A stretch of 64,000 nt of DNA, taken from assembly GCF_039522665.1 (NCBI RefSeq), contig NZ_BAAADV010000003.1, positions 288,124 through 352,123 on the forward strand. Direction: 5' to 3'. The notes below the pieces were generated by a model, which was not told the origin of the DNA, searched no databases, and worked only from the letters and a program-made list of their open reading frames with translations. Made by a program: the position numbers and the translations under genes. This stretch comes from Natronoarchaeum mannanilyticum. Its GTDB lineage: Archaea > Halobacteriota > Halobacteria > Halobacteriales > Natronoarchaeaceae. Shown here piece after piece: positions 56,240 through 59,426 of the stretch (positions within the stretch are counted from its first letter, which is position 1; each line of letters starts with the position of its first letter).

Positions 56240-56351
56240 CGGCGCCGGGACCGGCCGACGCCGGCGTCGGCGCGCCCGGCGGGACGCCGCAACCGATCCG
56301 GCCGACGCCGCCTCGAAAGCCCGAAGTGTGCGCCGGCGCCTACACGACCGT

Positions 56352-56825
56352 ATGACCGAGAAGACCGGAACCTTCCTCGTCACGCACGCCGACGAGGGGT
56401 CGGCGGTGTTGCGCGACGTGAGCGACGGGCAGGTCCACACGATGGCGTCGAACCCGGACGTGGAAGAACGGGACGTCCTCGAGGCGACGATCCGTCCCCA
56501 GCCGCCGATGGAGGTCGCCTGGGAGGTCGTCGAGGTCGAGGAGCGGCGCGCCGTCGAACTCGTCGACACCGACCTCTCGCCGACGACGCAGGCGATGGAG
56601 ATCGCCGCCGAACAGGCCGTCGGCGAGGTCGAGCGCGTCGATCGCGCCGGCGACGGCGAGATTCACGTGCTGTCGGTGCCGCCCGAGCGCACCGCCGACG
56701 CCGCCGCGGACGTGCTCGACGATACGGGAACTCTCGAACGCGCCGCGCGGCTCGGCGCCGTCCGCGTCGAGGTCAGGGCCGACGACGACGAGGGCGTCGT
56801 GAACGTGCGCTACCTGCCGGACTGA
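56352..56825 (+). CDS. Conserved haloarchaeal protein (DUF5812-like)
   Basis: The 157-residue protein begins MTEKTGTFLVTHADEGSAVL, with LRDVSDGQVHTMASNPDVEE, DVLEATIRPQPPMEVAWEVV and QAMEIAAEQAVGEVERVDRA. I recall this as DUF5812, a conserved haloarchaeal family of unknown function; the beta-rich first half resembles an OB-like or S1-like fold. No membrane segment is present. It faces the next gene (56831) end to end with a five-base gap. Confidence 0.78.
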   Translation: MTEKTGTFLVTHADEGSAVLRDVSDGQVHTMASNPDVEERDVLEATIRPQPPMEVAWEVVEVEERRAVELVDTDLSPTTQAMEIAAEQAVGEVERVDRAGDGEIHVLSVPPERTADAAADVLDDTGTLERAARLGAVRVEVRADDDEGVVNVRYLPD

Positions 56826-57257: not shown

Positions 57258-58289
57258 ATGGGGGACGACGGGACGGAGCGTCGATTCGAAGCGCTCGACG
57301 ACGGGGCGGGAGTCAGGACCGACGGCTGCGACGCCGAGCGCGTGCTCGTGTTGAACCCGGCTGCCGGAACCGGCGACCACGTCGCCGAGGTGCGCTCGCG
57401 CGCCGCCGAACACGGGTTCGACGTCCGCGAGACCGAGGGCGAGGGCGACGCCGTCGAGTTCGCCCGCGAGGCCGCGGCGGCGGGCGCGTCAGTCGTGGCG
57501 GCGGCGGGCGGCGACGGGACGCTCAACGAGGTCGTCCGCGGTATCCAGGCGGCGGAGAAACTCGGCGAGGTCGCGTTCGCGGTCGTTCCCGCCGGGACGG
57601 GCAACAACTTCGCGTCGAACGTCGGCATCGGCGGGATCGCCGACGCGTTCCGGGCGATAGAGCGGGGCGAAGTCAGGGAGATCGATGTCGGGACGGCCAA
57701 CGACGGGCTCTTCCTGAACTCCTGCGTGGCCGGGCTGACCGCCGACGCCAGCGCGGCGACCGACAGCGAGATGAAAGAGCGGCTGGGCGTGCTCGCGTAC
57801 GTGCTGACGACGATCCGGCACCTGCCGGACTACGACGGGCTGCCGCTGCGCGTCCGGACCGACGAGGTGGTCGACGAGGCGATCGAACCGGCCGACGCCG
57901 AGCCCGACGCCGACGCGACGGCGCGCGATCCCGACTGGGAGGGCCGGGCGCTGATGGTGCTGATCGGCAACGCCCGGCGGTTCCCCGGGCAGGGATGGCC
58001 CGCGCCGGGAAACGCCGAAGACGGGCTGCTGGACGTGACCGTCGTCGCCGGCCAGCCCTCCGGCGACCTGCTCGGAGACGGCGCGCTCGGCCGGCTGCTC
58101 GCCGGCGAGGAGACGGCGATGCACCGGCTCCGGGCGCCCGCGCTCTCGATCGAGTCGCTCGACGACGAGCCGATCCAGTTCAGCCTCGACGGCGAGATGG
58201 TGTCGACGCCGTCGCTCGACGTTTCGATCGAGCGGCGACGGCTCCCGCTGTTCGTCGGCGAGGGGTACGATCCGGAGCCGACCTCGTGA
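57258..58289 (+). CDS. Diacylglycerol kinase-like lipid kinase
   Basis: The 343-residue protein begins with an acidic tail, then VLVLNPAAGTGDHVAEVRSR (nucleotide region), VVAAAGGDGTLNEVVRGIQA (GGDGT) and AVVPAGTGNNFASNVGI. The C-terminal half ends in the conserved FSLDGEMVSTPSLDVSIERR. This is the DagK/YegS family, which phosphorylates lipids such as diacylglycerol or, in archaea, possibly archaetidyl-type polar lipids; the substrate here is unknown. An acidic insertion (about 215-231) is visible. The gene lies before idi, 64 bases away. Confidence 0.9.
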   Translation: MGDDGTERRFEALDDGAGVRTDGCDAERVLVLNPAAGTGDHVAEVRSRAAEHGFDVRETEGEGDAVEFAREAAAAGASVVAAAGGDGTLNEVVRGIQAAEKLGEVAFAVVPAGTGNNFASNVGIGGIADAFRAIERGEVREIDVGTANDGLFLNSCVAGLTADASAATDSEMKERLGVLAYVLTTIRHLPDYDGLPLRVRTDEVVDEAIEPADAEPDADATARDPDWEGRALMVLIGNARRFPGQGWPAPGNAEDGLLDVTVVAGQPSGDLLGDGALGRLLAGEETAMHRLRAPALSIESLDDEPIQFSLDGEMVSTPSLDVSIERRRLPLFVGEGYDPEPTS

Positions 58290-58353
58290 ATCCGTCACAG
58301 TGAGCCACGAAGAACCGAAGGGAGTTTCAATCCGGTCGGAGATGATAGCCGTA

Positions 58354-58917
58354 ATGAGCACGCAGAACGCCGACGAGCCGGCACACGAGAACGCCGAGCA
58401 GGACGTGATCGCCGTCGACGCCGACGACAACCCCGAGGGACTGGTGAACCGACTGGACGCCCACACCGGCGACGGGATCCGCCACCGCGCCTTTACCTCG
58501 CTGGTGTTCGACGGCGAGGGCAACATCCTGCTGGCCCAGCGCGCCGCCAACAAGCGCCTCTGGGACACCCACTGGGACGGCACAGTCGCCTCCCACCCCG
58601 TCGAGGGCCAGACCCAGAAGGAGGCCACCCGCCAGCGCCTCGACGAAGAGTTGGGGATCTCGCCCGACCAGTACGACGATCTGCGCGTGACCGACCGGTT
58701 CGAGTACAAGCGCTACTACGAGAACGCGGGCGTCGAGCACGAGGTTTGCGCGGTGCTCAAACTCACGCTCGACGACACCTCTCTCGACCCCGACGAGGAG
58801 GAGGTCGCCGGCCTGATGTGGGTCCCCTACGAGCGTCTGCACGAACACCCCGAGTGGTACCGCCAGCTCCGCCTCTGCCCCTGGTTCGAGATCGCGATGC
58901 GCCGCGACGTCCGGTAA
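58354..58917 (+). CDS. idi: Isopentenyl-diphosphate isomerase type I-like (Nudix) protein
   Basis: The 187-residue Nudix protein has EGLVNRLDAHTGDGIRHRAF, a metal-binding Glu/His pattern and the IDI-type Nudix helix EATRQRLDEELGI. EHEVCAVLKL supplies the second catalytic Glu. At the place of the catalytic Cys (E. coli IDI Cys67, in the sequence NSVCGHP) this protein has DGTVASHP, so the Cys is Ala. Haloarchaeal IDI-like proteins appear to share this. Family assignment is good; the exact activity is less certain. The ATG at 58354 is used. Confidence 0.8.
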   Translation: MSTQNADEPAHENAEQDVIAVDADDNPEGLVNRLDAHTGDGIRHRAFTSLVFDGEGNILLAQRAANKRLWDTHWDGTVASHPVEGQTQKEATRQRLDEELGISPDQYDDLRVTDRFEYKRYYENAGVEHEVCAVLKLTLDDTSLDPDEEEVAGLMWVPYERLHEHPEWYRQLRLCPWFEIAMRRDVR

Positions 58918-59075: not shown

Positions 59076-59426
59076 ATGAGTACCACCGCACGACGGCGTG
59101 ACGCGACCCGAGTCGACATGAGCCGCGCAGAACAGTGGGTCGTCCACCACGTCATGCTGCAGCAGGTCGAAGCGCACCGGGAGGACGGCGAGTCCCCGCC
59201 CTGGTGGGCGATCAACGCGATCGAAAAGCTCGAAGACCGGCCGGTAGAGGAGTCGACGGCCGGCACCGACCGACCGTTCACCTGCTATGAGGCCTGGCGC
59301 CTCCGCCGTGCGCTCTCCGAGTACGCCGAACAGCCGGAAACGCCGGAGGACGACGTCGCCGCCGCGGTGGGGCTCGTCCGACGGCTCGACGAGACGTTCG
59401 TCGAACCGCCGACCGCGCTGAACTGA
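59076..59426 (+). CDS. Hypothetical small helical protein (116 aa)
   Basis: The 116-residue protein is Arg-rich at the N-terminus (TTARRRDATRVDMSRAEQWV) and then helical: VHHVMLQQVEAHREDGESPP, WWAINAIEKLEDRPVEESTA, CYEAWRLRRALSEYAEQPET and AAAVGLVRRLDETFVEPPTA. I do not recognise the family but the charge pattern is typically haloarchaeal. It has its own TATA box and a short leader. Downstream is the large palindromic element. A T5 tract at 59452-59456 may terminate it. Confidence 0.68.
   Translation: MSTTARRRDATRVDMSRAEQWVVHHVMLQQVEAHREDGESPPWWAINAIEKLEDRPVEESTAGTDRPFTCYEAWRLRRALSEYAEQPETPEDDVAAAVGLVRRLDETFVEPPTALN

Follow-up and report, generated by a model that had tools for sequence, protein, structure and literature searches.

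The catalytic Cys of the type I IPP isomerase is replaced by Ala in the haloarchaea, where the change is a fixed, clade-wide trait, and in 170 of the 242 genomes sampled from this clade no IPP isomerase other than the Cys-less protein was detected. The protein described here (P0001, 187 amino acids), from Natronoarchaeum mannanilyticum, is encoded on the forward strand of the window, i.e. the whole stretch of 64,000 nucleotides that was analysed. Its gene is intact and runs from 58354 to 58917, with an ATG at 58354 and a stop codon ending at 58917, and an alternative in-frame GTG start is possible at 58300. We infer that the enzyme is active, and consider it highly likely that the gene codes for a working type I IPP:DMAPP isomerase, in which the Cys was lost once, in the haloarchaeal ancestor, and replaced by Ala, with another group serving as base. 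The protein very probably performs the job of IDI1, and the best name for it is a Cys-less type I-like IPP isomerase; it was not filed as an ordinary IDI1 because the catalytic Cys, a defining feature, is replaced. In descriptions of the type I mechanism, the two proton transfers require both a Cys and a Glu, and a clade without the Cys makes this assumption directly testable.

The initial annotation had read the Cys of the motif as Ala, and had described the region of the catalytic Glu as kept. Both readings held. Ala79, at the position where the E. coli, human and yeast enzymes carry the catalytic Cys (Cys67 in E. coli), is encoded by GCC at 58588-58590, within tgg gac ggc aca gtc GCC tcc cac ccc gtc (58573-58602, W D G T V A S H P V), and all 115 haloarchaeal genomes that were read directly have Ala at this position together with both E128 and E130. 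A type II enzyme scores over its cut-off in 16 of these genomes and not in the other 99; 113 of the 115 belong to our sample of 242 haloarchaeal genomes, and two (G001 and G005) lie outside it. The DNA pattern for GTVA[S/T]HP is present in 240 of the 242, though a reversed control pattern also matches some genomes by chance, and a rare exception could hide among the genomes that were not read directly. The two genomes without a match are the same two that have no type I hit. This census rules out that the Ala is due to faulty sequencing or to a mutation confined to this genome. Its codon varies synonymously among 55 distinct stretches, being GCC in 45, GCG in 5, GCT in 4 and GCA in one. A shifted alignment, which the initial annotation had named as a possible refutation, is ruled out by phmmer: VASHP of the window protein pairs gap-free with the VCGHP found in the IDI of both E. 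coli and Salmonella, and EHEVC pairs with ENEVC. The same motif also aligns gap-free with VAGHP of PDB 1ow2, which we take to be the C67A mutant. With a single type I match in the organism's own genome, a second, Cys-bearing type I gene is ruled out as well. Bacterial relatives were gathered with an N-terminal query that excludes the motif, and from plasmid sequences; all 87 readable rows out of 88 have the Cys, in a sample that is mostly Bacteroidota and Chromatiaceae and in which rare Cys-less bacteria could have been missed. Two rows were dropped, L155 being unreadable at the motif and L080 being a chance place of the pattern without an idi gene. We found no report of the Cys loss in the open-access papers that were searched; subscription papers may differ.

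Eleven other IDI residues (H25, H32, R51, K55, H69, R83, E87, Y104, E114, E116 and W161 in E. coli numbering) are each kept in 115/115 genomes. Five of them, H25, H32, H69, E114 and E116, are the metal ligands of IDI1, and in the window, on the forward strand throughout, they are found in the stretch His37 to His44 (HTGDGIRH, 58462-58485, for H25 and H32), as His81 (58594-58596, for H69) and in Glu128-x-Glu130 (58735-58743, for E114 and E116), which holds both a metal ligand and the catalytic acid/base. The catalytic E116 is accompanied by Y104 and W161 in every genome read. Among the residues that bind the diphosphate in IDI1, K21, R51, K55, R83 and E87, only the first is altered, to Arg in 115/115. 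This is one of two further positions, fixed in bacteria, that change together with Cys67: Lys21 (88/88 bacterial rows) has become Arg33 (58450-58452), and Asn64 (87/87 readable rows) has become Gly76 (58579-58581), the latter also in all 115 haloarchaea. Small inserts are present at residues 106-107 and 170-172 as compared to the bacterial homologues, 35 of which are 23-37% identical to the window protein. Exactly two cysteines are invariant across the haloarchaea. Cys132 (58747-58749) is the C118 of E. coli, present in 115/115 haloarchaea and in 2 of 87 bacterial rows. Cys175 (58876-58878) is specific to the haloarchaea, and sits two residues before the active-site Trp177 (W161 in E. coli), immediately ahead of the final helix in the model (176-183); of the 87 bacterial rows, 80 have Thr here, 6 have Ser and one has a gap, with the residue-level equivalence in this region based on sequence alignment.

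It had been left open by the initial annotation whether the haloarchaeal IDI uses another base or the protein is a Nudix hydrolase with a different role. Family scores bear on both readings. The protein falls just below both curated IDI cut-offs, with 125 bits against 127 for NF002995 and 99.3 bits against 105.8 for TIGR02150, which speaks against a working enzyme and, like the absence of the Cys, would suit a Nudix hydrolase, or some different enzyme that binds diphosphates, resembling YfcD or DR0079. In none of the 242 haloarchaea sampled does a protein pass the TIGR02150 cut-off, a point of relevance to automatic annotation. In Pfam the protein matches NUDIX only, and in NCBIfam only IDI1 and Nudix models, with the type II model (TIGR02151, FMN barrel) not among them; the 13 matches among Protein Data Bank sequences at E<=0.001 are all named IPP isomerases. 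An AlphaFold2 model (pLDDT 90.4, pTM 0.85, from an alignment of 36 rows) matches E. coli IDI best (1hx3_B, Z 23.0, rmsd 1.9 A over 166 residues; Foldseek E 2.0e-15), followed by human IDI1 (Z 22.7), human IDI2 (21.9), YfcD (2fkb, 20.9) and DR0079 (2o5f, 18.9), and other Nudix proteins reach Z 16.6 or below. The window protein has the Nudix fold in common with YfcD and DR0079, including the N-terminal extension, and in these two a catalytic Cys is not expected. The predicted fold by itself would hardly separate IDI from YfcD; the residues do so. The Nudix hydrolase box, GX5EX7REUXEEXGU (PMC5389931), is broken in the haloarchaeal proteins, with S80 at its G (115/115), Q86 at its first E (112/115) and R95 at the E of REU (115/115), and the YfcD model gives 27.8 bits against a cut-off of 152. 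The haloarchaeal proteins retain the IDI metal ligands together with Glu116, Tyr104 and Trp161, most of which are lost in five weak Nudix relatives from other archaea (L068-L072). A hydrolase would furthermore require that an unknown enzyme makes DMAPP in the haloarchaea that have no type II, 170 of 242 genomes, and we regard this reading as improbable. An isomerase with another base is favoured instead, the other active-site residues being kept and no other isomerase being detectable in those genomes.

The distribution of isomerases among genomes points in the same direction. A search for a type II Idi in the organism's own genome (95.75% complete), which had been proposed as a check, gave none over the cut-off; a divergent type II was also rejected, the sole match being a 47-position, 22-bit fragment in a frame of 569 codons. 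In the family of the source organism the type I protein is present in 9/9 genomes and type II in 3/9. Across the class, the sample of 242 genomes has type I in 240 and type II over the cut-off in 72, so that 170 genomes, including that of the source organism, have type I only, 70 have both, two have type II only and none has neither. The phylum sample for type II held 146 genomes of Halobacteriota, 33 of them Halobacteria, and here type II was found in all 113 genomes outside the Halobacteria but only in 12 of those inside. The type II enzyme (FMN-dependent, TIGR02151) presumably catalyses the same reaction in the same slot of the pathway, but has an unrelated fold and cofactor. A phylum sample of 294 genomes contains close relatives of the window protein, 69-100% identical, in 52 genomes, all of them Halobacteria; nine further genomes give weak matches of 25-33% identity, and the five of these that were read have lost most IDI residues. 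IspH, the other known source of DMAPP, was found in 0/242 haloarchaeal genomes, which rules out DMAPP from the MEP route, and the mevalonate-type decarboxylase family is present in 242/242 at E<=0.001, with 62 over the family cut-off. With the mevalonate route present and IspH missing from the sample, DMAPP should come from IPP by way of an isomerase, and since DMAPP begins every isoprenoid chain and archaeal membranes are isoprenoid, this step should be essential. An unrelated isomerase of another kind in haloarchaea is conceivable.

It counts against a working enzyme of any kind that the Cys is described as central to proton transfer (PMC11415240 and PMC5925831, where papers by Street in 1994 and Wouters in 2003 are listed), so that an enzyme with Ala is not expected to work. 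The 70 genomes with both proteins could suggest that the Cys-less protein has only feeble or vestigial isomerase activity, or binds IPP or DMAPP as a regulatory pseudo-isomerase, and is kept alongside the type II Idi; Cys67 mutants of the model enzymes are severely impaired. However, no type II is left in the 170 genomes mentioned, and among the genomes read the active site varies no more in the 99 without type II than in the 16 with it; such a leftover role is very unlikely. It is more unlikely still, to the point of being hardly credible, that the substrate is isopentenyl phosphate and not IPP, with IP converted to DMAP ahead of the kinase reaction in the haloarchaeal mevalonate route. The haloarchaeal pathway is described as passing through IP (PMC9385802), but the diphosphate-binding R51, K55, R83 and E87 are kept and Lys21 is changed only to Arg.

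The two genomes with type II only, G029 and G220, are 1.9 and 2.1 Mb in size, and may branch before the gain of the type I gene. As an exception they are statistically weak alone, the chance being about 0.09 (from 72/242). Partial type II matches were seen at G017:C1:1792146-1792382 (73.6 bits), G233:C19:99508-99783 (113.1 bits) and G047:C2:5963-6226 (74.9 bits), and could be what is left of type II genes in decay. In one genome, G216, full-length type II Idi genes lie on each of three contigs, C13, C9 and C7, in addition to the Cys-less type I gene.

For a working type I isomerase without Cys67, we propose the following mechanism. The diphosphate of IPP would be bound by the metal site (H37, H44, H81, E128 and E130) and by a cationic pocket of R33, R63, K67 and R95, with E99. 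Glu130 together with Tyr118 would act on one face of the substrate, as in E. coli, in the metal-dependent protonation and deprotonation of the type I enzymes. The proton movement in human type I isomerase is described as antarafacial (PMC11415240), and therefore two groups are needed; the residues of proton transfer are given as Cys67, Tyr104 and Glu116 in E. coli (PMC11415240) and as Cys139 and Glu207 in yeast (PMC5925831). The transfer at the opposite face, performed by Cys67 in E. coli, would be taken over by another group, either the clade-specific Cys175 beside Trp177 or a bound water. For this putative second base, Cys175, an invariant residue and candidate replacement thiol, would be the first choice. 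As the sole substitute Cys132 is less likely, because E. coli also has a Cys there (C118, in ENEVC) and still depends on Cys67. In yeast IDI, a higher activity was reported for W256C, which a homology model places close to the hydrocarbon part of IPP, and W256F, L and I likewise raised lycopene (PMC5925831). Yeast W256 would correspond to W161 of E. coli, and by this analogy the W256C result may weakly support Cys175. We suggest, tentatively, that haloarchaeal lipid synthesis could run entirely on a type I isomerase that has lost the Cys of its N-x-x-C-x-H-P motif and has its thiol relocated to Cys175, where the helix with the active-site Trp begins, or on a thiol-free one that uses water. If true, the enzyme would have reinvented its chemistry of proton transfer while changing little in other respects.

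Compared with known type I enzymes (E. coli Idi and human IDI1; TIGR02150 and NF002995), the window protein is alike in length and fold (Z 23.0 and 22.7), has an intact set of metal-site residues and of the catalytic Glu, Tyr and Trp, and retains the diphosphate site for the most part. It differs in Cys67 to Ala, Asn64 to Gly, Lys21 to Arg, the extra Cys175, the small inserts and the low identity to bacterial homologues given above. It represents an archaeal class in which the Cys was lost and nearly all else was kept, with no type II seen in most of the sampled genomes. This qualifies the claim, made in a review, that archaea use IDI2 instead of IDI1 (PMC8677530). Haloarchaeal proteins have been named as isomerases by annotation, IdiA HVO_2506 in Hfx. 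volcanii (PMC13358004) and IdI HFX_2519, 32% identical to E. coli idi (PMC6282799); according to the latter source, only crtB among the overexpressed candidate genes raised lycopene in Hfx. mediterranei, which would speak against a working isomerase if idi was one of those genes.

The haloarchaeal IDI1 has been seen as acquired from bacteria (PMC3533463). Our trees were built from chosen rows, 55 in the first and 53 in the second, leaving out the weak Nudix relatives L068-L072. In the tree of 53 rows the haloarchaea form one clade with support 100/99, and a single change between Cys and Ala suffices. The place of this clade among the bacteria is unreliable, and as long branches meet there, no bacterial donor is named. 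The row left out of the second tree, L062 (CP030828.1, Neorhizobium), has an idi CDS annotated from 526, with IDI homology continuous over 301-711 (row 301-819); the start in this record is probably wrong.

The surroundings of the gene were compared in 46 haloarchaeal loci with flanks. Directly upstream, on the same strand, lies a YegS/DAGK-type lipid kinase gene (57258-58289, forward strand; Pfam PF00781/PF19279), which adjoins idi on the same strand in 20 of the 46 loci, and the two are possibly a lipid-related gene pair. Downstream, at 59076-59426, is a gene for a small DUF7853 protein of unknown function, which is also near idi in 16 of the 46 loci, and another small protein of unknown function, with DUF5812, is encoded at 56328-56825.
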